This document shows, piece after piece, positions 36,429 through 51,899 of a DNA stretch of 64,000 nucleotides. How positions within the stretch are numbered: the first letter of the stretch is position 1; each line of letters opens with the position of its first letter. The position numbers and the translations under genes were made by a program. The notes under the pieces were generated by a model. The model searched no databases. It was not told the DNA's origin and worked only from the letters and a program-made list of their open reading frames with translations. Where the stretch lies: NCBI RefSeq assembly GCF_900454025.1, contig NZ_UGQM01000001.1:1054001-1118000 (forward strand). The letters are read 5' to 3'. The DNA comes from Mycolicibacterium gilvum. GTDB taxonomy: Bacteria; Actinomycetota; Actinomycetes; Mycobacteriales; Mycobacteriaceae.

Positions 36429-38756
36429 ATGGCTGTCCACTGGACACCGAACTGGACGTGCGCGACGGCGACCGGCCTGACCGCGACACTGCTGCTGGCG
36501 GGGTGCTCCCGCGGTCCGGACGACGAGGGTGCGACGCCGATCCGCGAACGGGCGACGGCAGCCGTCGACTTCACCCTCCCCGACGCGCAGCGCTACCACC
36601 GCCTCGCCACCTACCCGGTGCACCTGAACAAGCCGGCCACTGACCCCGTCGACGCCGAGACCGTCGCCGAGATCTCCACCGTCACCCCGGACGGCAACAC
36701 CGTGATCTACACTGATGCCGCCGGCAAGCGCATCGGCTTCCTCGACATCCGCGACCCCGCCAATCCCGTTGGGCTGGGCACACTCTCGCTGGCTGAACTC
36801 GGCCACGCCGACGACCAGCCCACCTCCGTCGCTGCCGTTGGCGAGTACGTGCTGGTCGTCGTCGACACCACCGGCGGCGACTTCGCGAACCCGTCCGGCC
36901 GGGTCGACGTCGTCCGGGTGGCCGACCGCACCCGCGTGCACAGCGTCGACCTCGGCGGCCAGCCCGACTCGATCGCCGTCGCGCACGACGGTTCGTTCGC
37001 CGCGATCGCGATCGAGAACCAGCGCGACGAGGAGTTCACCCCGCCCGGCGCCGAAGAAGGCGACCTGCCGCAGCCGCCGACCGGGTTCGTGCAGCTGCTC
37101 GACCTCGCGGGCGCACCCGACACCTGGGTACCCCGGCGGGTCGACTTCGACGTCGACGCCGCCCGTGCGGCGGGCCTGGACACCCCCGAGGACCTGGAGC
37201 CCGAGTACGTCAGTGTGAACGCTCGCGGCCAGGTCGCGGTGACGCTGCAGGAGAACAACGGCATCGCGATCATCGACGGCCGCACCGGCGCAGTGCAGAA
37301 GATCTTCAGTGCCGGAACGGAATCCGTCACCGGGATAGACACCGCCGAGGACGGCCGGGTCGAGCAGACCGGTTCGATCACCGACACCCCGCGCGAACCC
37401 GACGCCATCGGCTGGATCGACGACACCCACGTCGCCACCGCCAACGAAGGCGACTGGAAGGGCGGTACCCGCGGCTGGAGCATCTTCGACGCCGGCACCG
37501 GCGAGGTGGTCTGGGACGCCGGCAACAGCGTTGAACAGCTGGCGGTCCGGACCGGTCTGCACATCGAAAGTCGCGCCGAGTCCAAGGGTCCCGAACCCGA
37601 AGGTTTGGCGATCACCGAGATCGGCGGCCGTCCCGTCGCACTCGTGGCGTCCGAGCGGAGCAATTTCGTCGCCGTCTACGACGTCAGCGACGCCACCAAC
37701 CCGCAGTTCCGGCAAATGCTGCCGGCCACACCCGGCCCCGAGGGCATCCTGCCCGTCCCGGCGCGCGACCTGCTCGTCATCTCCTCGGAGAGCGATGACG
37801 CCGAGGCACGGGTCCGCGCCACGGTCACCGTCTACGGCTTCGGCGAGCGCTACGCCGGGGCTCCGCCATTCCCGTCGATCGTGTCCGGTGACGTGGACGG
37901 CACCCCTATCGCGTGGGGTGCGCTCGGTGCGCTGAGCGCCGATCCGGCCGACGAGAACCGGCTCTACACCGCGCCCGACGTCGCCTACGGACCCTCGCGC
38001 ATTCTCGGCGTCGACCTCACCCAGACCCCGGCGCTGATCGACACCGAGCTGCCCGTCACCGAGGCCGGTGAAGCGGTCACCCTCGACGTCGAGGGCGTCG
38101 CGGCGCGTCCCGACGGCGGGTTCGTGCTCGCCGTCGAGGGCGAGGAAGGCCCGGGCAACCAGCTGGTGTTCGTCGGTGCCGACGGGGCGATCGAGCGCCG
38201 GGTGTCGTTGCCTTCCGAGGTCGCCGCCGGACTCGGTGGGCAGGGATTCGAAGGCGTCGCGCTCGACGGGGACGCGGTGTGGGTCGCGGTGCAGCGGGAG
38301 GTGAAGACCGATCCGAGCGGAGTGGCCCGCCTCGGCCGCTACTTGCCGGACTCCGACACCTGGGAGTGGTTCGGCTATCCGCTGGAGTCGACCGACGTCG
38401 ACGGCGACTGGATCGGACTGTCCGAGATCCAGGTGCACGACGGCGCACTGTTGGTGCTGGAGCGCGACAAGCTGAACGGGCCCGACGCCCGGGTGAAGGC
38501 GATCTACCGGGTGGCGCTGCCGACCGGTGCCGGGGCGACGGGTGCTGCGGCGCCGCCGCTGTTGCCGAAAGCGCTTGCCCGCGATCTGCTTCCGGACCTG
38601 CAGGCCACCCGCGGCTACACCCAGGAGAAGGTCGAGGGCTTTGCGATCGCCGGCAACGGGTCGCTCTATGTGGTGACCGACAACGACGGACTCGACGACG
38701 CCAACGGCGAGACGGTGTTCCTCGACCTCGGACCGGCAGGCGACGCGCTGCGGTAG
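36429..38756 (+). CDS. Lipoprotein with esterase-like/phytase domain
   Basis: A 775-residue secreted lipoprotein: lipobox LLLAGC with lipidated C26. The mature protein shows beta-propeller-like repeats (DGNTVIYTDAAGKRIGFLDI, GRVDVVRVADRTRVHSVDL, PDSIAVAHDGSFAAIAIENQ, GFVQLLDLAG), matching the 'choice-of-anchor'/esterase-like activity of phytase type of proteins. Near the C-terminus are GQGFEGVALDGDAVWVAVQRE and KVEGFAIAGNGSLYVVTDNDG. GAGGGTGACGG precedes ATG 36429. The gene is bracketed by two direct copies of a 58/59-bp palindrome and is convergent with mksB, in the place where jetD would be expected. Enzymatic activity is inference. Confidence 0.8.
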   Translation: MAVHWTPNWTCATATGLTATLLLAGCSRGPDDEGATPIRERATAAVDFTLPDAQRYHRLATYPVHLNKPATDPVDAETVAEISTVTPDGNTVIYTDAAGKRIGFLDIRDPANPVGLGTLSLAELGHADDQPTSVAAVGEYVLVVVDTTGGDFANPSGRVDVVRVADRTRVHSVDLGGQPDSIAVAHDGSFAAIAIENQRDEEFTPPGAEEGDLPQPPTGFVQLLDLAGAPDTWVPRRVDFDVDAARAAGLDTPEDLEPEYVSVNARGQVAVTLQENNGIAIIDGRTGAVQKIFSAGTESVTGIDTAEDGRVEQTGSITDTPREPDAIGWIDDTHVATANEGDWKGGTRGWSIFDAGTGEVVWDAGNSVEQLAVRTGLHIESRAESKGPEPEGLAITEIGGRPVALVASERSNFVAVYDVSDATNPQFRQMLPATPGPEGILPVPARDLLVISSESDDAEARVRATVTVYGFGERYAGAPPFPSIVSGDVDGTPIAWGALGALSADPADENRLYTAPDVAYGPSRILGVDLTQTPALIDTELPVTEAGEAVTLDVEGVAARPDGGFVLAVEGEEGPGNQLVFVGADGAIERRVSLPSEVAAGLGGQGFEGVALDGDAVWVAVQREVKTDPSGVARLGRYLPDSDTWEWFGYPLESTDVDGDWIGLSEIQVHDGALLVLERDKLNGPDARVKAIYRVALPTGAGATGAAAPPLLPKALARDLLPDLQATRGYTQEKVEGFAIAGNGSLYVVTDNDGLDDANGETVFLDLGPAGDALR

Positions 38757-38833: not shown

Positions 38834-41800
38834 TCAGACGCCCGCCGGGACCTTCGCCTCGGCGCGCATCGCGTGCCGCAGATCGGTGAACTCCGAGATG
38901 GTGCGGGTCGACACCGTCGCGACGGGGCGGGCGTTGCGTCCCGTCGCCTCGGTCTTGGACACCATCACCACGCTGTCGATGTAGGGCTGGATGGTCGTCG
39001 CGTTCTGCACGGTCGCGACGATCACCAGCTGGAACCCGAACTTGCGGAACGCCTGCAGCGCCTGCTGGGCGAACTGCGGGTCCGACTTCGAGAACGCCTC
39101 GTCGAGCATCAACTGCGCGAAAACCGGTCTGTTGTCCGAACTCTCGGGGGCCGCGAGGTTGAAGCTGAGCGCACCGGCGAGGCAGAACGCCATCAGCTTC
39201 TCCTGCTCGCCGCCGGAGTTGTCGCCGGCGTTGCTGTGCGTGCGGATCAACTCCTCGGTCGCCACATCCCATTCGGCGCAGTCGAACGTGAACCGGTTGC
39301 GCACATCGAGCGCGTCGCGCGTCCACGCCTTGTCCTCCGGCGCCGTCGACGCCAGCCGGTTGCGCAGCCGCAGGATGTCGGCGTACTGGTCCAGGATCGC
39401 CTGCTTGTCGCCGAGCCCGACCTCGGCGATGCGCCGCGAGATCGCCCGCACGATCTCGGTCAGCTCCGACACCGCCGTCAGGCTGCGCGGCGTCGCGCGC
39501 AGCGTCAGGCGGGTGCCGCGGTTGAACTCCACCGCCCCCAAACCCGTGTTGACACGGTCGATCTGGTCGCTGATCCGCCGCGCCTCCTGCTCGGCGACCC
39601 GGTGCAGCGTCAGGATCGCATCCGGTGCCTGCTCGGTGACCAGCCGCATCATCCGCTCGTAGGCCTCCGGCAGCTCGCGCTCGTCGATGTGACGGCACAG
39701 CGCGACGTAGTCGTGGACCCGCTCGTCGAAGTTCTCGGAGTCGTTCGGGATCGCGTCGGGGAACGACGTGTCGAAGGTATTGAGAATGCGGGCCAGTTCG
39801 TCATACGAGCGGCGGCGGCTCTCGCGCAGCTGCTCGCGCTCCTTCTTGATCGCGTTGAACAGCGCGTCGCGATGCGGTTCGGGCTCAAGGAGTTCCAGGC
39901 TGACCGGCAGCTGTCCGGCGTACCGGTGCAGCAGCTCGGTCAGCGGCTCCGACACGAACGCGGGCTGGAGCCGTTCGGCGAGTTCCAGCAGCCGGGTCCT
40001 GCGGTCGTCGAGCGCGTCGCGCCGGGTCTGGACCGCGCCGCGTCGCGTCATCAACTTCTGGATCTGCGACCAGCATTCGTCGGCGCGCGCATTGAGCGCC
40101 TCGATGTCGGGATGCTCGGCCAGCAGCAGCTCGTACTGCTCGCGCAGCCGGTCGGCGTGCCCGTCGGCGGTCTCGGTGTCGATCTGGCTCCACTGCGGGT
40201 ACTGCTCGCAGATCGCCTTGCACGCCGCGGCCCGGTCACGCCACTGCTGGCGCTGCGCGGCGATGTCGTCGGCGACGCGGCGCGCCTTCTGGTAAGCCTC
40301 CTCGGCCGCCGCGAGATCGACGGTCAGCGCGTTGATCTTGGCCGACACGTCGCCCTGGTACAGATACTCGGACTGCTTGAGCGGGCGCCGGTCGTCCTTG
40401 ATCGCCAGCCGGTCGGAATCCTTGTACAGGCCGGTGTCGGTGACCGCGCGGCGGAACCGGGCGAACACCTCGGGGGTGTCGACACAGATGTGGTCACCCG
40501 CGGCGGTCACGACGTCGACGGCCTCGGCCGCACACGGGTGCTCCGGATCGACCGCGAACAGCTTACCCGCCAACGTGTTCGGTTCCGGATCGACCGGGGT
40601 GGCGCCGAGGAACTTCGCGCGCACATGGTGCAGCTGCAGCCGTCCGCGCATATTGGTCTCGTTGACGAAGCGCAGCACCTCCGTCCAGTGCTGGTCGGGC
40701 ACCATCAACCGCAAGCCGACCCCGCGCAGCACCTTCTCCACCGCGGTGCGCCAACGGGTCTGTTCGGCCTTGAGGTCCATCAGCTCGGCGACATACGGCA
40801 GGTCGGTGGCGTCCACCCCGACCGCCGCGCAGATCTGATCGCGCATCGTCAGCGCGAACTCGGGCAGCGCGGAGCCGACGTGCTCGACGCGTTTGAGTTC
40901 CTTGGCGGCCTCGTCGCGGACGAGCCGGGCGGACTTCTGCGCGTACTCCGCGTCGGTGGACGCCTCCCGGTTGCGTTCGACCTTGGCGAGCAGATCGGTG
41001 GCCTGCGCGAGAAGTTCCTCGCGCAGGTTCCAGAACGCGTCGGCGGTCTCCGGCGCGTCGAGACCCTGCGCGGCGAGCAAGTCCTCGTAGGCGTTGCGGC
41101 GCCGCGACACCTGCTCGGCCTCGGTCTCGGCGGCGGTCACCTGCGACTGCAGCGGACCGATGCTCGCACTCGAGCCGCTGATCTGCGCGTTGAGTGAATC
41201 TGCTTCCGCCTTGGCCAGATTCAGGCTCCGCGTGATGTCCTCGTGCTCGTTGTCGAGCTGATCGATGGTGGTGTCGAGCTGGCTGACCTGGGCCGGGCAC
41301 TGGGCCAGCCGGACGTGGTCGGTGTAGGCCCGCACCATCGGCAGATCCACCAGGTCGATGATGCCCAGATCGGTGGACTCCGAGGCATACCGCTGCTGGA
41401 TCTTCTCGATGTCACCGAGGATCTTGCGCTTCTTCTGCGCGACCGCGAGCAACTCGCGGGCTTCCACCAGCGGGTCGATCTGCTTGAGTGCCTCCGGCAG
41501 CCGGGTCACGCTCTCGGGTTCGTCGAGCATGAACTCCCGGACGAACTGCTCCAGCCCGCCAACGCTTTTCAGCGACTTCGCCTTGCCGAGCAGCTGCTGG
41601 GCCGCGTCCGAGGCGCGGATGCCGATGGTCGCATACAGCTGCGCCAGATACTGCGACTCGACCTTGGTCGTGAACCGCCAGCCTTGACTTCTCCCGTCGC
41701 TGCGCTCGCCCCGGTGACTTCTCCCGTCGCTCCGCTCGCCCTGGCCTTCCTTGAACACCCCGGTGTCGAAACGTCCTGCCGCCCAACGGTTGCAGACGTC

Positions 41801-42256
41801 CTCGATGTCGAGGTCACCGTCGCCGAGCACGAAGCGGCTCGACGAATCGTTGCGCGATTCGCCCGTCAGCCACTTCAGCACCAGGCCCGTCACGGTGCGT
41901 CCGGAATCGCTGGAGTAGGTGACCGCCACCGCCGACCAGGCGGTGCCGTCACCGCGCAGGTACATCACCCGGCTCGTGCCGCCGTCGCTGCGCTGCCCCC
42001 ACGCACCGCGCACATACTTGTCGACGGTGCGCCGGCCCGCGCTCGACCCCGCGGCGGTGTTGTCGCCCGAGGCGTTGAAGTTACGCCGGTTGAACGGCAG
42101 GAAGCCCAGCGAGATCGCATCCAGCAGAGACGATTTGCCGCTGCCGGAGGCGCCGGCGATCAGCGCGCCGCCTTCACTGAACGGGATGTCGTGATAGCCG
42201 TCGAAGACACCCCAGTTGATGACCTGCAGCCGGGACAGGTGGAATTGCTCAGTCAA
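38834..42256 (-). CDS. mksB: SMC-like ATPase MksB (Wadjet JetC / EptC)
   Basis: An 1140-residue condensin-type ATPase. Walker [10 protein letters not shown] (35-43) at the N-terminus; ABC signature SGGEQEKL at about 1014 and Walker [12 protein letters not shown] at about 1049; long coiled-coil regions between ([28 protein letters not shown]). This is the motor of MksBEF/Wadjet complexes, which recognise and restrict circular plasmids in many bacteria; the mycobacterial Ept locus limits plasmid transformation. TTG start at 42256, overlapping mksE by eight bases. Residues about 172-191 are a 20-residue insertion encoded by two tandem 30-bp repeats. No jetD follows. Confidence 0.93.
41685..41744. 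repeat. Two tandem 30-bp repeats inside mksB
   Basis: Copies at 41685-41714 and 41715-41744 differ at two positions; each begins TGACTTCTCCCGTCGCT. In mksB they add [14 protein letters not shown] and [12 protein letters not shown] stretches in frame. The core GAGCG-AGCGACGGGAG (minus strand) looks like a mobile GC-rich repeat inserted into the gene. Too few copies and no spacers for a CRISPR. Confidence 0.8.
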
Positions 42257-42938
42257 GATCGGTCTCTGCTTCCGCGGTCGCGCCGTTGATCAACAGTTCG
42301 AACTGCTGCTGCAATTCGCTGATCACGCTGGCCGTCATCACTGCCGTGATCACGGGGGAAATGGTGTAGCTGTCCTCGTCGTCGCGGCTCTTGCGCAGGA
42401 TCTCCAGACCCGCGAGACGCGCGATCGCGGCATCGATGCGGCCCGCGAACGTGACCGCGTCGCGGTCGGTGTCGTTGAGCACGCCGGAGAAGAGCCCGTG
42501 CATCTCCTCGCGGCTGATCAACACGCTCTGCCCGCCCGCGGCGCGCATCATCTGCGCCAGGTGCAGCGCAAGGATCGAGTCGTAGGTGCCCAGCGGCTCG
42601 CGGCGCAGAAGCTTGATGCCCTTGGCGGATTCGTAGCGGGCCTGCTCGACGAACGCGACGTCGGTTCCGTCCACCACCCGCAGGATCAGGTCCAGCTCCG
42701 ACAGCCGCGTCGAGAGCTGACTTCGGTACTCCAGAACCCACGCGTAGATGTCGGCGTCGGACTCGGCGCTGATGTAGCGGCGCGTCAGCAGATGTTGCAA
42801 GGCCCAGCAGGCCCGATCGGGTAGCTCGGAGACGTCGCCGTCGAAACGCGGCCGCCGCTGGTGCGGCGGTCGGGCGGTCTGGTCGACCTCGGGCAGCGCG
42901 GAGAACGCCGCGAAATCGGCTTCGGATTCGGTGGTCAC
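42249..42938 (-). CDS. mksE: MksE (Wadjet JetB, DUF4194)
   Basis: A 229-residue DUF4194 protein, the KITE-type partner of MksB. Typical stretches are [71 protein letters not shown] and [21 protein letters not shown] start at 42938 overlaps the mksF stop by four bases (GTGA), and its own stop overlaps mksB by eight, so the three genes are tightly coupled. In the complex it bridges the kleisin subunit and the SMC arms. Confidence 0.92.
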
Positions 42939-44371
42939 TGCGCAACTCCGACACTGATCGGTTCGGTGAACATCAAACGGGGAACGGCCATTTCGCGATC
43001 CTTGCCGTCGAGCGAGCGGAACCGGACGGTCGCCGACCCGGGGGATGCCTCGTTGGGTTGTTTGAGCGCCCACGACCACAGCACGATCACGTGACCGAGG
43101 TAGGCGTTATCGACCATCGCCACCGCCTCGGGCAGGGACACCGCCCCGCGCGCGACCGCGGAGTTGAGCATGTCCGACATCGCGGGCGCATCGACCTGGG
43201 TGGTCAGTGCCGCGAAGCTGGCGAGATCCACGTCGCCCTCGGCGGGTTTCGCCGGCTTCGGGTTGGACAGGTCGCCGATCTTGAAGCTCAGCGCGCCGAC
43301 GGAGCTGATCGCATGGCGGGCCAGCGGGAGTTCGAGGTCCAGGCGTGAGTCGATGAGGCTGGACTTCAGCAGGTTGCGGGCTGCGCCGATGGCCTCGTTG
43401 AGCTGACGCGCCACACCGCGGCTCTGCTCCAGCGTGCCGAACGCGGTGAACCGTTTGACCCGCTGTGCGCACCGCTGCTGGATGCGCTCGACCTCGTCGA
43501 TCTGATGGCCGACGAGCTCGAAGAACCCGGCCATCACCTTGCGCAGCGCGGGGTCCAGCGCGGGCAGCGCATCGGCGACCGCGGCCACGTCGGCCTCGAA
43601 CTCGGCGCGCTGGTCGGGGTCGTTGATCATCCGCAGGAACGCGCGGTGGCTGTCGCGGCCCTGCGAATCCCAGGCGGCCTGGTAGTCGGCGTACATCTGG
43701 CGCTGCCGGTCGCGGTAGGCGACATTGCTGTCGATCGGCTCGTCGAGCGCCGCGGTGGCCTGCTCGATCATCGAGCCGTACTGGCCGATGTCGGTGATGA
43801 GGCGTTCCATCTGCATCGCGATCGCCCGCGCCTCGTCGTAGGCGTCGGTCACATCGGGCTCCGGCCGCGCACCGTTGTCGAGCTCGTCGAGCTCCTCGTG
43901 CAGTGCGGCGATCTCGGCTTCGATGCTCTTGCGGATGCGCGCGGGGTCGTTGCCGACGCGGATCGCGACCTGCTTGAGCCGCGACGCGATGCCGTTGATG
44001 GAACCACCCGTGGCGAGGGTGTCCTGGCGGCGCATCCCGCGCAGGAAGTCCAGCGCTCGGCGCGCGTCCTGCGTCAGATAGCAGACGTTCTGATCGCTGC
44101 GGGGATCGACGATGCGGTGCAGCCAGCCCTGGGCGGCCCACGACTTGATCAGCGCGAGGCCGGACTGCGGATCGCCGAGGTCGTCGAGGTCGCGCTCGAG
44201 GCGCACCACCAGCTCGGTCTCGGGGACCACGCCGTCGGCGCAGTGGCGTTCCATCAGCGTCGCGTAGAGGCTCAGGTTGGTGGCGGCCAGCAGTCGGATC
44301 GCACGGGAACTCTGCAGCTCACGGTTGCGCTCGAGCAGGTCGGCGGCCGACAGTGTCGCGTTGTCGTCCAC
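42935..44371 (-). CDS. mksF: MksF (Wadjet JetA, DUF3375)
   Basis: A 478-residue DUF3375 protein, the kleisin subunit of MksBEF/Wadjet. Family blocks: SSRAIRLLAATNLSLYATLMERHC, WAAQGWLHRIVDPRSDQNVCYLTQDARRALDFLRGM and a C-terminal RLMFTEPI. Coiled-coil and helical segments run through the middle. GTG start at 44371 follows AGGAGC. It is the first gene of a three-gene operon in the order mksF-mksE-mksB. The 200-base upstream region carries a perfect palindrome (44529-44542) and the terminator of the nitronate monooxygenase gene. Confidence 0.92.
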   Translation of the reverse strand: MDDNATLSAADLLERNRELQSSRAIRLLAATNLSLYATLMERHCADGVVPETELVVRLERDLDDLGDPQSGLALIKSWAAQGWLHRIVDPRSDQNVCYLTQDARRALDFLRGMRRQDTLATGGSINGIASRLKQVAIRVGNDPARIRKSIEAEIAALHEELDELDNGARPEPDVTDAYDEARAIAMQMERLITDIGQYGSMIEQATAALDEPIDSNVAYRDRQRQMYADYQAAWDSQGRDSHRAFLRMINDPDQRAEFEADVAAVADALPALDPALRKVMAGFFELVGHQIDEVERIQQRCAQRVKRFTAFGTLEQSRGVARQLNEAIGAARNLLKSSLIDSRLDLELPLARHAISSVGALSFKIGDLSNPKPAKPAEGDVDLASFAALTTQVDAPAMSDMLNSAVARGAVSLPEAVAMVDNAYLGHVIVLWSWALKQPNEASPGSATVRFRSLDGKDREMAVPRLMFTEPISVGVAQ

Positions 44372-44547: not shown

Positions 44548-44580
44548 CACGGTAGTGGTGCGGGCGAGATCACTACCGTG
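44548..44580 (-). terminator. Hairpin overlapping the nitronate monooxygenase stop
   Basis: CACGGTAGTG and CACTACCGTG are exact 10-bp inverted arms around 13 bases; the gene's stop codon (44573-44575) lies in the upstream arm. Separates that gene from the mks operon on the same strand. Confidence 0.6.
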
Positions 44581-45538
44581 TGGGCGGTCTCGCGAGGAGG
44601 CGGCGGGCGTCGTCGCACAGTCGGGCGATCACCACGGCCGCCGGCTCGACGGCGGTGATGTCGTCGACACCCTGACCGGCGTTGACCGGCGCCACCCGGA
44701 AGTCGTCGTCGGCGATCGCCTCGGCCAGCCGGGCGCGCGCGTCGTCGTCCGGGGTCCGGCCGTCCCAGGCGGCGGTGAACGCGTTGCGCAGCACGCGCTC
44801 GGGGAAGTGCGCGGGCCACGGGTAGCCCAGCGCGACGTCGAACACCCGGGTGGTCAGGGTGTCGGTCGCGTCGGCGGTGAGCAGCGCCCGGCGCGCCTCG
44901 TCGGGAAACAGCGACTCGGGGCACGTCGCGAACGCGGTCCCGATCCACGCCCCCGCCGCACCGGCTGCCAGCACCGCCGCCAGCGCGCGTCCGGACGCGA
45001 TTCCGCCCGCCGCGAGCACCGGCACCTCGACGCGGTCGAGGATCGCGGTCAGCAACGGCAGCGTGGCGACGGCGGGGGTGCCGTGCCCGCCGGCTTCGGC
45101 GCCGCGGGCGACCAGCACCTGCACCCCGGCGTCGACAGCGCGCAGCGCGGCCTCCACGTCGGCGACCTGCGTCACCGACACGCACCCGGCGTCGCGGGCG
45201 CGCGCCACCCAGTCCCACTCCGTGCCGAAGCTGACCGACAGCACCGTCGGACGCGCGTCCAGCGCGGTCGTCAGCAGTTCGGGCTCCTTGCGGATCACCC
45301 AGTCGATCACGCCGATACCGAAGGGCCGCTTGAGTTCTCCGAGTTCGGCCAGCTGGGCGCGGAGTTGCGCGGCGGACGCGGAGCTGCCCATGCCGACCAT
45401 CCCGAGACCGCCGGCGCGGCTGACCGCCGCCGCCAGCGTCCCGCCCGCGGCTCCGCCCATCGGCGCGTTCACGATCGGGACGTCGAGGCCCAGCTCGGCC
45501 GACCACGGTGTCGATAAGGTGTCCATCTCGCCGGCCAT
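44573..45538 (-). CDS. Nitronate monooxygenase family protein
   Basis: A 321-residue FMN TIM-barrel enzyme (2-nitropropane dioxygenase family). Blocks: LGLDVPIVNAPMGGAAGGTLAAAVSRAGGLGMVGMG, GIGVIDWVI, ARGAEAGGHGTP (with the H of the active-site loop), VPVLAAGGIASGRALAAVLAAGAAGAWIGTAF. Start at ATG 45538 (MAGEMDTLS); the ATG at 45526 is an alternative. It is divergent from an alpha/beta hydrolase gene with only 27 bases between starts, so their promoters must overlap the coding regions or each other. Oxidises nitronates or related compounds; true substrate unknown. Confidence 0.9.
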   Translation of the reverse strand: MAGEMDTLSTPWSAELGLDVPIVNAPMGGAAGGTLAAAVSRAGGLGMVGMGSSASAAQLRAQLAELGELKRPFGIGVIDWVIRKEPELLTTALDARPTVLSVSFGTEWDWVARARDAGCVSVTQVADVEAALRAVDAGVQVLVARGAEAGGHGTPAVATLPLLTAILDRVEVPVLAAGGIASGRALAAVLAAGAAGAWIGTAFATCPESLFPDEARRALLTADATDTLTTRVFDVALGYPWPAHFPERVLRNAFTAAWDGRTPDDDARARLAEAIADDDFRVAPVNAGQGVDDITAVEPAAVVIARLCDDARRLLARPPTR

Positions 45539-45565
45539 TATCGTCGCCCGTGCCAGGATGAGGTC

Positions 45566-46309
45566 ATGACGGTCGTCTTCGTGCACGGTAACCCCGAAAC
45601 CGCGGCGATCTGGGGTCCGCTGACCGCGGTGCTCGGAAGCGATGACGTCGTGCTGCTCTCACCGCCCGGATTCGGTGCGCCGCTGCCCGACGGCTTCGGG
45701 GCGACGTTCGTCGAATACCGCGACTGGCTCGAAGCCGAACTGGAACAGATCGACGGGCCCATCGACCTGGTGGGTCACGACTGGGGCGGCGGGCACGTCG
45801 TCAACGCGGTGATGCACCGTCCCGAACTGGTCCGCAGCTGGGCCTCCGACGTCGTCGGCCTGTTCGACCCCGACTATCAGTGGCACGACATGGCGCAGGT
45901 GTGGCAGACGCCCGGCGCGGGTGAGGAACTCATCGCGAACATGATGGGCGGCGGCCTCGAAGCGCGCACGGAACTCATGTCCTCCCTTGGCATTCCGGTC
46001 GATATCGCGGCCGCCATCGCCGAGCAGCAGAACGACGACATGGGCAGGGCGATCCTCGCGCTGTACCGGTCGGCGACCCAACCGGCGATGGCCGAGGCCG
46101 GACGGTCGCTGGAGGCGGCCGCCGCGCGCCCCGGACTGTCGCTGATGGCCACCGAGGATCCCTATGTCGGGGTCAACGACAACCGCCGCCGCGCGGCCGA
46201 CCGGGCCGGGGCGCGCACCACCGTGCTCGATGGACTCGGGCACTGGTGGATGGTCGAGGACCCGCAGCGGGGCGCGGCCGCGCTGACCGAGTTCTGGGAC
46301 AGCCTGTAG
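45566..46309 (+). CDS. Alpha/beta hydrolase with Asp nucleophile
   Basis: A 247-residue alpha/beta hydrolase of the haloalkane dehalogenase/epoxide hydrolase branch: oxyanion segment VFVHGNPETAAIWGPL, nucleophile aspartate in VGHDWGGGHVV, and catalytic histidine in DGLGHWWMVEDP. Asp instead of Ser at the elbow points to dehalogenase- or epoxide-hydrolase-like chemistry. ATG 45566 follows GATGAGG. The stop is 13 bases from the convergent dehydrogenase gene. Confidence 0.9.
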   Translation: MTVVFVHGNPETAAIWGPLTAVLGSDDVVLLSPPGFGAPLPDGFGATFVEYRDWLEAELEQIDGPIDLVGHDWGGGHVVNAVMHRPELVRSWASDVVGLFDPDYQWHDMAQVWQTPGAGEELIANMMGGGLEARTELMSSLGIPVDIAAAIAEQQNDDMGRAILALYRSATQPAMAEAGRSLEAAAARPGLSLMATEDPYVGVNDNRRRAADRAGARTTVLDGLGHWWMVEDPQRGAAALTEFWDSL

Positions 46310-48879: not shown

Positions 48880-51219
48880 TCAGGGTCCGTGCGCGGCGAG
48901 CCAGGCGAAGAAGTCGTCGGCGCACAGCACCGGCTTGCCGTACTCCAGCGCCTTGCGGGCCTTACCCGACTGCGTGCCCGCCTCCGCGGTCACCAGCACG
49001 TCGCAGCGGGTCTTCGTCACCGACTTCACCGGTACCAGACCCGCGGCGGTGGCCAGGCGTTCCATCTCATCGCGTTCAACCACCCGGCCGTCGGGATCCT
49101 GCGCCGTGCCGGTGAAACAGATGCGTGCGCCCGGGGCCAGGATCCCGTCGACATCAGGACGATCCAGAAGTTCGGTGCCCGAGAGTATTTCGACGCCGAG
49201 CAGCTCCTCGGCGGCGTGCAGGCGGGACAGCACCTCGTCGGTCAGCTGCACGCGGTTCGCCGCGACGCGCAGCTGATCGGCGACCGACTGCCGGGCACCG
49301 GCCTCCCAGCCGGTCGCATCGTCGCGCGGCGGCGCGGTGCCGCCCAACAGCACCGACCCGACGTCGCGGCTGATCCGCAGCAGCGCCGACAGACCCGGCA
49401 GATGATCGGCCACCGGCGTCGGCACCGACGCATCACGGCTCACCAGAAGTCCTGACAGTTCAACGGTTTCGGGATCGTCGAACGTCGAGGAACCGTCCTC
49501 GGCGTCGGCGGCGCGGTGTGCCTGCAATGCGGAGCGGGCGCGTTCCAGCGCGGTACGGCCCTGCGCCCGCGTGCCGCGCACCTCGACACCCAGCGGCATC
49601 GGCGTCACGAAACCCAGCCGCTTCAGCTCGAAGTCCAGCAGGCCGAGCGTCTCGTCCACGCCGGGGCCCACCGGGGTGGCGCCGGCCAGCATCGGCGCGA
49701 TCACCGCCCACGCCTCACGCAGTGTCGGTGCCAACAGCACATCGGACACCGTGATACCGAACGCCGTTCGCGCATCGGCCAGATCGCGCTGCGGGTTCAC
49801 CAGCGTGGTGACCGCAGTGCCGTCGTCGAACGCCACCGCGAGCTCGACGGGCCGCGGACGTGACATCCGTCCCTCGTCGCCGACGGTCAGCATGCCGATC
49901 GCGCAGTACCGCCGAGCCCCGGCAGCGCCGGAGGAGGTCCGCAGATAGCGGGTGACACGACGATCGGTTTTCAAATCCTTCGGCAGCACAGGGCGTTTCA
50001 GCACCAGGCCGGCCAGCGAGGTGCAGCGGCTCAGCGCCACATACAGCTGACCCGTCGAGAACATACCCCCGGTCAGGTCGACGACCACCCGCTCCAGCGT
50101 CTGTCCCTGGCTCTTGTGGATCGTGATCGCCCACGCCAGCTTGAACGGCAACTGCGTATACGCGCCGACGACCTCACGACTCAGCGACGACCCCGACATC
50201 ACCGGGCGCGTCACCTCCCACGTGAACGGGGAGACGTCCGCACTGGTGCCGTCGGGAAACTCGACCTCGACGACCGCGCCGTACCGGTCGTAGCCGACCC
50301 CGACGACGCGCGCGACGGTGCCGTTGACCCACCGGTTGCCCTGGTCGTTGTTCAGCATCATCACCTGCGCGCCGACCTTGAACCGCAGCGTCTCCTCGAC
50401 CGGCGCCTCGAACATCGCCAGGTCACCGGAAGCCTTGGCGTGGTGGGTGAATTCCTCACCAGGAAGGCGTTCCAGCTGCTGTCGGTTGCGTGCGGTGACG
50501 AGCCGGTTCGTCGGGGCCAGCGTCAGCCAGAACTCGTCCTCGGGTGGTACGAAGTCCTTGTCGGCGCGCGCGTTGAGCTGCTCCTGGGCATGCCCGAGGA
50601 GCACACCCTCGCGAATCTCGTTGAGAATGGCCGTCATCCGGTCGTCACCGAGTTGGCGGAACACCGTCGTCAACGACACCGTCGGGAAGTCATCGCGGTG
50701 AAACGCGTTCGCGGAGAAGAAGTACGGCGTCCCATACGTCGTAGAAAAATAGGTGGCCTCGTCCTCGCGGACCACCGGCGGGAGCTGGTACAGATCGCCG
50801 ACCAGCACGATCTGCACCCCGCCGAACGGGGTGCCCGGCTCGGGCCCGAAGCGTTCCAGCGCCGCGGCCACCATGTCGAACACGTCGGCGCGCACCATCG
50901 ACGCCTCGTCGATGATCAGCGTCTGCAACGCCGCCAGCGTCTTGGTGAACCGCCCCGGGCGATACTCGCCGGAGCGGACGTCGTCGAGCGTCGTCGTCGA
51001 GCGGAGGCCGAACATGCGGTGGATCGTGTAGCCGTCGACGTTGAGCGCGGCGATCCCCGTCGGCGCGACCACCACCACGTTGCGGTCGGTGTCCGCCATG
51101 AAGCGACGGATCAGCGTCGACTTACCGGTGCCCGCCTTGCCCGTCAGGAACACGTGCCGTCCCCCGGCGAGCAGGGCCAGCGCCTCACGGAACTCCTCGG
51201 TGAGGACCAGCGCGGTCAT
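48880..51219 (-). CDS. PIF1-like helicase with C-terminal BRCT domain
   Basis: A 779-residue protein. The N-terminal half is a PIF1/RecD-type SF1B helicase: Walker A LTGKAGTGKST (K33), APTGIAALNVDGYTIHRMFGL, Walker B LIIDEASMV, LVGDLYQLPPV, VFRQ, and the C-terminal AITIHKSQGQTLERVVVDL with YVALSRCTSLAGLVL. The middle (about 450-690) is diverged. The last 80 residues form a BRCT domain (RICFTGTAQDPDGRVVERDEMERLATAAGL...KARKALEYGKPVLCADDFFAWL), as in NAD-dependent ligases. ATG 51219 overlaps the TVP38 stop by four bases. Likely role: DNA unwinding at breaks or forks; inference. Confidence 0.9.
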   Translation of the reverse strand: MTALVLTEEFREALALLAGGRHVFLTGKAGTGKSTLIRRFMADTDRNVVVVAPTGIAALNVDGYTIHRMFGLRSTTTLDDVRSGEYRPGRFTKTLAALQTLIIDEASMVRADVFDMVAAALERFGPEPGTPFGGVQIVLVGDLYQLPPVVREDEATYFSTTYGTPYFFSANAFHRDDFPTVSLTTVFRQLGDDRMTAILNEIREGVLLGHAQEQLNARADKDFVPPEDEFWLTLAPTNRLVTARNRQQLERLPGEEFTHHAKASGDLAMFEAPVEETLRFKVGAQVMMLNNDQGNRWVNGTVARVVGVGYDRYGAVVEVEFPDGTSADVSPFTWEVTRPVMSGSSLSREVVGAYTQLPFKLAWAITIHKSQGQTLERVVVDLTGGMFSTGQLYVALSRCTSLAGLVLKRPVLPKDLKTDRRVTRYLRTSSGAAGARRYCAIGMLTVGDEGRMSRPRPVELAVAFDDGTAVTTLVNPQRDLADARTAFGITVSDVLLAPTLREAWAVIAPMLAGATPVGPGVDETLGLLDFELKRLGFVTPMPLGVEVRGTRAQGRTALERARSALQAHRAADAEDGSSTFDDPETVELSGLLVSRDASVPTPVADHLPGLSALLRISRDVGSVLLGGTAPPRDDATGWEAGARQSVADQLRVAANRVQLTDEVLSRLHAAEELLGVEILSGTELLDRPDVDGILAPGARICFTGTAQDPDGRVVERDEMERLATAAGLVPVKSVTKTRCDVLVTAEAGTQSGKARKALEYGKPVLCADDFFAWLAAHGP

Positions 51220-51899
51220 TGCCGCGCCCGCCACCGCCGCCAGCCGCGGTGCGCGGCGAACGCGCCGATCACCGCGGTCACGCACCACACCGCTGCCGCC
51301 GCGAACGCCAACGGGGCCGAGAACTCCCCGATCGAGGACCCCACCACCGTGTACACGAACGCCCGCGGCATCGACCCGATGAACGCGCCCGCCGCCATCT
51401 GCCACAGCGGAACACCGAACGCGCCGAACGCGTAGGACGCCAGTGAATCGGAGATCCCGGGTACGAAGCGCTGCCCGACGACGGCCCACAGGCCGCCACG
51501 CTCGATGAGCCGGTCGACCTGCTCGGCACGGGACGCGCCGAGCAGCGTGCGGGCGCTCTGCCTACCCGCGCGCCGGCCCACGTAGGCCGAGATCAGCGCA
51601 TTGACGACCGTCGCGCCGAGCGTGACGACGGTGCCCACCACCGGGCCGAACAGGAACCCGCTGCCCGCTGCCAACAACGGGCCCGGCACCAGCAGCGCGC
51701 CCAGCACCGCCGAGACACCCACATAGGTCAGCGGCGCCAGCGGGCCCGTCGACTCGATCAGATCCCGCACCGCCTCGACATCGATGACACGCGCGATCGC
51801 GGTGAGATAAAACAGCACCGCCAAAACCGCGACGACCAGCGCGAGCCGGACGAGCGCGCGCCGTTTCGAGGTTTCGGGGGCGTCGGTGGGGTCGGTCAT
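51216..51899 (-). CDS. TVP38/TMEM64-family membrane protein
   Basis: A 227-residue protein with five or six membrane helices and the SNARE-associated/DedA-like core: PLTYVGVSAVLGALLVPGPLLAAGSGFLFGPVVGTVVT and QRFVPGISDSLASYAFGAFGVPLWQMAAGAFIGSMPRAFVYT. Family members are thought to move lipids across membranes. Start ATG 51899 (MTDPTDAPETSK). The stop overlaps the helicase start (ATGA), so the two are cotranslated; the biological reason is not obvious. Divergent from the winged-helix/HerA unit with 39 bases between starts. Confidence 0.9.
   Translation of the reverse strand: MTDPTDAPETSKRRALVRLALVVAVLAVLFYLTAIARVIDVEAVRDLIESTGPLAPLTYVGVSAVLGALLVPGPLLAAGSGFLFGPVVGTVVTLGATVVNALISAYVGRRAGRQSARTLLGASRAEQVDRLIERGGLWAVVGQRFVPGISDSLASYAFGAFGVPLWQMAAGAFIGSMPRAFVYTVVGSSIGEFSAPLAFAAAAVWCVTAVIGAFAAHRGWRRWRARQ

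Follow-up and report, generated by a model that had tools for sequence, protein, structure and literature searches.

Structure of the jetABC Operon

The subject of this study is a three-gene operon of Mycolicibacterium gilvum that encodes a complex of the structural maintenance of chromosomes (SMC) type, JetABC, also named MksBEF. The window, i.e., the whole stretch of DNA that was analyzed, comprises 64,000 bases (positions 1,054,001 to 1,118,000 of contig NZ_UGQM01000001.1), and the operon lies on its minus strand. The open reading frames (ORFs), Pfam and PADLOC identified jetA/mksF (42935..44371; kleisin-type subunit, DUF3375, 478 aa), jetB/mksE (42249..42938; KITE-type subunit, DUF4194, 229 aa) and jetC/mksB (38834..42256; SMC-type ATPase, 1140 aa), which agreed with a preliminary description of the locus as three tightly coupled genes. 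The Pfam matches were DUF3375 (350 bits) in JetA, DUF4194 (130 bits) in JetB, and AAA_29 with SbcC_Walker_B in JetC, and the type-1 models of PADLOC scored 859 (JetA1), 388 (JetB1) and 2088 bits (JetC1). The two overlaps in that description were also found: jetA and jetB share GTGA at 42938-42935, and jetB and jetC share 8 bases at 42256-42249, with TTG as the start codon of jetC. The ORF of jetB is open further upstream, and its start was set at 42938 because of the GTGA overlap and the homologue length of 229 aa.

The ATPase motifs of JetC are intact, as had been claimed. Walker A (GASGSGKS) occupies residues 35-42 (42131..42154), the signature motif (SGGE) residues 1014-1017 (39206..39217), and Walker B (LMLDEAF) residues 1049-1055 (39092..39112). 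The single JetC sequence matched the solved JetC chain 8as8_A over residues 3-1101 with an E-value of 3.7e-58 (phmmer). The single sequences of JetA and JetB matched no solved JetA or JetB chain, respectively, but their family profiles did, with 8dk1_A (E 2.8e-45) as the best match for JetA and 8as8_C (E 3.1e-18) for JetB. The operon unites the JetA, JetB and JetC subunits that characterize Wadjet, and it also fits MksBEF in having homologues of MksF, MksE and MksB, intact ATPase motifs of the SMC type, and no MksG. The alias "Ept" given in the preliminary description is doubtful: EptABCD is described as a four-gene Wadjet in a review (PMC10586767), and MSMEG_0370 as a separate, second MukB-like protein of M. 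smegmatis (PMC6135046).

JetD Is Missing From the Operon and From the Genome

The type I Wadjet systems (JetABCD or MksBEFG) of Corynebacterium glutamicum, Escherichia coli GF4-3 and Pseudomonas aeruginosa PA14 have the same JetA, JetB and JetC, the same gene order and the same ATPase motifs. However, they have JetD, which is missing from the operon and the genome studied here. The place where jetD would be expected is taken by a convergent gene (36429..38756, plus strand) with Phytase-like and choice-of-anchor-I domains (Pfam) and, by eye, a lipobox-like LLLAGC near its start, in line with its earlier naming as a convergent lipoprotein gene. It is not part of the complex. The statement that no JetD lies in the operon or the 64 kb held, since a hidden Markov model (HMM) of JetD matched none of the window's ORFs of at least 60 aa. 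The HMM was built from 30 JetDs of the family, and the positive-control loci were in its training set.

The preliminary description had proposed a genome-wide JetD search and named two observations that would speak against it, a jetD behind an assembly break and a jetD elsewhere in the genome. Neither was made. The genome has 6.43 Mb and is rated 100% complete, and a whole-genome search with the Pfam profiles gave no match for DUF3322 and none for JetD_C at E ≤ 10. Both models matched in the control genome of C. glutamicum. On a contig of 6,148,425 bases that begins with the start codon of dnaA, the operon occupies about 1.093-1.098 Mb. An assembly break was rejected as the explanation of the absence, because the operon is situated about 1.09 Mb inside this contig. 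A divergent JetD overlooked by Pfam was also rejected, as our own JetD HMM was empty in the window and in 80 related loci. The same genome encodes a canonical SMC (1055.6 bits).

Distribution of JetD Among Related Operons

The 80 related loci are the best 80 of 193 related stretches from named genomes. Nearly all are mycobacterial by title, and two are titled as metagenome-assembled genomes of Actinomycetota or Acidobacteria. The closest named relatives of JetC were found in Mycolicibacterium vaccae, parafortuitum and austroafricanum (93-94% identity). JetC and JetB were present in all 80 loci and JetA in 77, while JetD was found in none by our HMM, a second model agreeing; 79 of the 80 stretches extend more than 500 bases past the operon. 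Two weak JetD matches (E 0.02-0.03) overlap jetC. A comparison of synteny had been proposed as a check of the locus, and it showed that the surroundings vary between mycobacterial subclades. By tblastn, two of the loci (L039 and L042) have jetB and jetC but no jetA despite 6 kb of sequence upstream of jetC; these are possibly broken operons.

Among the 301 genomes of the family, DUF3375 was found in at least 131 and DUF3322 in at least 55, with up to 5 first-look candidates (one search) or 10 (the other) scored in many genomes. For 132 JetA matches of at least 240 bits in 121 genomes, JetD was called when DUF3322 lay on the same strand no more than 8 kb downstream, which was the case for 51. 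JetA matches of the window's score type, set as below 396 bits within the nine genera g1, g7, g9, g11, g13, g17, g19, g30, and g31, had DUF3322 beside them in 1 of 68 cases, compared with 45 of 56 for matches of 396 bits or more in any genus and 5 of the remaining 8. The JetA score is a rough proxy for the clade, for which a tree is the better test. Five genomes (G052, G090, G276, G282, and also G553) hold both JetABCD and the window's type of JetABC, which indicates that the two are not interchangeable.

Phylogeny and the History of JetD

Trees of JetA were built with 73, 55 and 46 rows, together with a quick JetC tree of 73 rows that agreed with them in outline. In the JetA trees, JetD-less rows including the window form a lineage with support of 100/100. 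One part of it consists of Mycobacterium with genera g9 and g31, and the other of Williamsia, Jongsikchunia, Tsukamurella and related genera. In the 46-row tree, the second part is joined by five loci of Phytoactinopolyspora (f34g148), where JetD was not found either.

JetD-positive rows are also nested in this lineage, one in the 55-row tree and two identical ones in the 46-row tree. They belong to two Mycobacterium genomes, G246 and G544 (loci L152 and L235), whose JetA rows are identical and which have kept JetD after jetC. The JetD of L152 passes both Pfam cut-offs and has, by eye, acidic Toprim-like motifs. The point at which L152 and L235 branch within the Mycobacterium part was resolved in the 55-row tree and not in the 46-row tree. 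On these trees, two JetD-keeping genomes inside the lineage imply at least two losses of JetD, or a loss and a later regain within one lineage. In a quick tree with long branches, the JetDs of L152 and L235 grouped with those of JetA's sister clade, which favors inheritance over a recent regain.

JetD-less rows outside the lineage were L176, L177, L185-L188, L202, L204, L205, L218 and L229, with the stretches of L177 and L218 ending 1-3 kb past jetC; L203 had a JetD match of only 24 bits. The trees require 5 or 6 changes of the JetD label. A single loss, modeled by grouping 20 JetD-less rows of the main clade, was rejected by the approximately unbiased (AU) test with p 1.9e-139, the group having been chosen after the tree was seen. 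The loss of JetD looks recurrent, and the trees point to several JetD changes within the actinobacteria alone.

Loci L185-L189 of genus g9 make up a second group of JetD-less JetABC outside the window's lineage. In L189, the JetD-less JetABC stands in tandem with a complete JetABCD. L185-L188 gave weak JetD matches (26-39 bits) overlapping the end of jetC, which were judged to be artefacts, since similar second matches occur in loci with a real JetD. Beyond the family, JetABC operons without a clear JetD were seen in L202-L205, L218 (f16g66) and L219-L223 (f34g148).

Selection and Conservation of the Complex

The median ratio of nonsynonymous to synonymous substitution rates (dN/dS) against the window was 0.147 for jetC (80 pairs), 0.204 for jetB (80 pairs) and 0.202 for jetA (77 pairs), the pairs not being independent. 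By these ratios, the jetABC genes are under purifying selection. With a loose pattern, the ATPase motifs of JetC were kept in 78 of 80 loci, and the misses were an 830-aa ORF and a truncated contig. Stricter patterns found Walker A in 71 of the 80 JetC sequences, and the signature and Walker B in 79 each. Every one of the 16 genomes of g30 has a DUF3375 match, one of them with an internal stop. Together with the patchy occurrence in the window's genus described below, this makes the complex look selected yet dispensable.

Proposed Function of the JetD-Free Complex

Homology to Wadjet and MukBEF suggests that JetABC extrudes loops with the energy of ATP (PMC10586767; PMC12647877). MksBEF of P. 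aeruginosa likely arose by the loss of JetD (PMC10586767). The latter organizes and segregates the chromosome (PMC7485682). In Borrelia, which has neither MksE nor MksF, MksB promotes long-range chromosomal contacts, and these are lowered when mksB is deleted (PMC10406323). The reading that we consider the most probable, with fair but by no means full confidence, is that the M. gilvum operon encodes a nuclease-free JetABC of the MksBEF type, which arose from a Wadjet-type JetABCD when JetD was lost, and that it serves as an auxiliary and dispensable condensin beside canonical SMC. By analogy, the complex probably loops or condenses DNA without cutting it. It would hold two JetC ATPases joined by the JetA kleisin together with JetB KITE subunits and, once loaded on DNA, would extrude or bridge loops by hydrolyzing ATP. 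Without JetD, the full extrusion of a circle would end in a folded, uncut molecule. We infer the loop extrusion, the chromosomal target and the direction from JetABCD to JetABC.

Several observations weigh against this reading. DUF3375 of all JetA types occurs in 82 of 148 genomes of the window's genus, in a patchy manner and with some copies fragmentary. The mycobacterial subclades differ in the gene surroundings of jetABC, which suits an accessory gene, and some JetDs could be missed in the family searches given that candidates were scored in part. A triple mutant of M. smegmatis without SMC, EptC and MSMEG_0370 reportedly still forms and condenses nucleoids (PMC6135046). If MSMEG_0370 is the orthologue, it is therefore unlikely that the complex is required for compaction on a gross scale. 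In C. glutamicum, MksB as part of a complete MksBEFG is described as without effect on chromosome organization (PMC10123090).

An AlkZ-Like Glycosylase Gene in the Slot After jetC

In five genera related to Williamsia, our own HMM detected an AlkZ-like ORF immediately downstream of jetC, in the same orientation, in each of the 20 fetched loci (g7, 1 locus; g11, 9; g13, 1; g17, 1; g19, 8). These loci are L153-L157, L165, L190, L193, L194 and L239-L249, and no JetD match was obtained in any of them. The protein of L157, the one scanned, matched Pfam PF06224 with 241 bits. In the 19 cases located, the first conserved AlkZ-like block is separated from the jetC stop by 8-42 bases, and a Q-A/S-Q motif is present in all 20; the motif used by AlkZ is Q-aliphatic-Q (PMC9040887). 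Neither an AlkZ-like gene nor JetD was found in 15 loci of g30 (16 genomes; L166 ends inside jetC). The Williamsia-related genera share the jetABC neighborhood, and the adjacency alone may thus be inherited synteny; the tight spacing is a stronger hint.

These loci suggest an alternative, which we regard as possible though rather unlikely, that JetABC is an exchangeable motor from which JetD was discarded and, in Williamsia and its kin, replaced by the AlkZ-like glycosylase for SMC-guided DNA repair. The mycobacterial version would then play the same role in DNA maintenance, alone or with a partner in trans. The L157 protein was considered as such a partner, and no match to it was found in the window's genome at E ≤ 1e-10. 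Across the genus, matches were obtained in 38 of 146 genomes, the best with 39% identity (G494) and most with 29-35%; G494 is itself a genome without a DUF3375 match. A limited literature search found no publication that links an AlkZ/YcaQ/HTH_42 glycosylase to SMC/MukB or to DUF3375/DUF4194/DUF3322. If the glycosylase-coupled version is real, it would represent an effector type new to SMC complexes.

Plasmid Restraint, Effectors in Trans, and Decay

It is also conceivable, at somewhat longer odds, that the complex restrains plasmids without cleavage, by extruding or compacting small circular DNA and thereby lowering its copy number, expression or partition. JetABC confers the sensing of shape and size in Wadjet, and JetA, JetB and JetC are intact in the window, but in Bacillus subtilis plasmid transformation was suppressed only with all four subunits, both points according to the review (PMC10586767). 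The genome has ten small contigs beside the chromosome, six of which were searched (C2, C3, the first 20 kb of C5, C6, C10 and C11). C3, C5 and C6 match pieces of 212-353-kb plasmids of M. vanbaalenii, M. poriferae and M. gilvum and would be parts of one or more large plasmids related to these, C10 and C11 have plasmid matches that cover at most 28% of the query among the matches listed, and C2 gave no match. We dropped the idea that these contigs are small plasmids whose presence would prove a lack of restriction, as the identified ones match plasmids above the stated size limit and so do not decide the matter.

That an unrelated enzyme, with its gene in another part of the genome, acts in trans as the effector appears about equally doubtful. 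The glycosylase gene after jetC in Williamsia and its relatives suggests that the lineage may pair with another DNA enzyme, and an N-terminal motif of JetB, RFDGDxSxLP (42819..42848, minus strand), is strongly kept: R, F, G, the second D and the final P are invariant in all 42 JetD-less JetB sequences of the main clade. The window also has, close to jetABC, a Pif1-type helicase gene (48880-51489, minus strand) whose product looks BRCT-like by eye at its C-terminus, and at least part of such a gene was found near the operon in 7 of 198 fetched loci. However, its distance and strand vary and it was found near 5 of the 80 loci; the three nearest of the four flanking proteins scanned matched no PADLOC family, and the missing AlkZ-like match in the window's genome also tells against this alternative. 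The preliminary description had left open a nuclease from elsewhere, a different nuclease, or condensation only. Among these, the findings favor a JetD-free complex that has been kept for long over a nuclease in trans; no candidate for the latter emerged, with no genome-wide search made for other, unrelated nucleases.

The JetB motif was also considered as a contact for JetD, because a JetD-contacting IFDR motif at the JetB N-terminus is described in the review (PMC10586767). The link to IFDR could not be shown, and an IFDR directly before DERRTPQ in the JetB of PA14 was not borne out. Fourteen JetD-positive JetB sequences, picked for having the region, show a looser L-aromatic-x-GD-x-G, and the whole N-terminal region is absent from many JetD-positive systems. 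The JetD-positive L152 carries the window's form, so that the motif does not track JetD.

Finally, a decaying Wadjet relic on its way to loss is improbable, for although fragmentary JetA matches were seen within the genus (e.g., in G206 and G526, where contig breaks could explain part) and jetA was not found in 3 of the 80 loci (one on a truncated contig), the genes are full-length in the window, and the conserved JetC motifs, the low dN/dS and the constant presence of DUF3375 in g30 speak against decay.

Relation to Known Systems

The nuclease-free condensin that we favor resembles MksBEF of P. aeruginosa, which likewise has three subunits, no nuclease (MksG), and a place beside canonical SMC. 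The likeness is one of gene content, and the complex described here is actinobacterial and known from its genes. A 2020 paper reportedly describes M. smegmatis MksB as an alternative condensin with DNA-binding and DNA-condensing activity. If that MksB is MSMEG_0370, the condensin reading has already been published for the genus. MSMEG_0370 is a MukB-like SMC protein present beside SMC and EptC (PMC6135046), and it is a likely M. smegmatis counterpart of the window's JetC and may be its orthologue. EptABCD of M. smegmatis is also a mycobacterial MksB-type system, but one of four genes that restricts plasmids (PMC10586767). DUF3375, DUF4194 and AAA_29 are listed among the domains enriched in rapidly growing mycobacteria (PMC10551460).

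A nuclease-free MksBEF and a second MukB-like protein in mycobacteria were thus already known. As far as our searches show, two findings are new: most of a lineage has lost JetD, with an exception inside it that keeps the gene, and in Williamsia and its relatives a glycosylase gene occupies the slot of JetD. The lineage takes in many Mycobacterium species and allows the same SMC motor to be compared in nature with its nuclease and without it, in some cases inside a single genome. With such pairs it becomes testable how JetABC acts on a chromosome without cutting, and how a defense machine could become, or come from, a chromosome organizer.

Flanking Genes and Additional Loci

The Pif1-type helicase matched 12 PADLOC models, the best with 84.7 bits. 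In L146 and L151, its gene stands directly after jetC on the same strand, and elsewhere its position varies. Locus L225 gave a JetC match of 917 bits and no JetA, JetB or JetD match in the fetched stretch. Scans for promoters and terminators and for tRNAs found none. Upstream of jetA, at a distance of 201 bp, lies a nitronate-monooxygenase-like gene (44573..45586, minus strand; Pfam). This neighbor is not conserved, with counterparts in 6 of the 80 loci, and the convergent gene past jetC has counterparts in 3.

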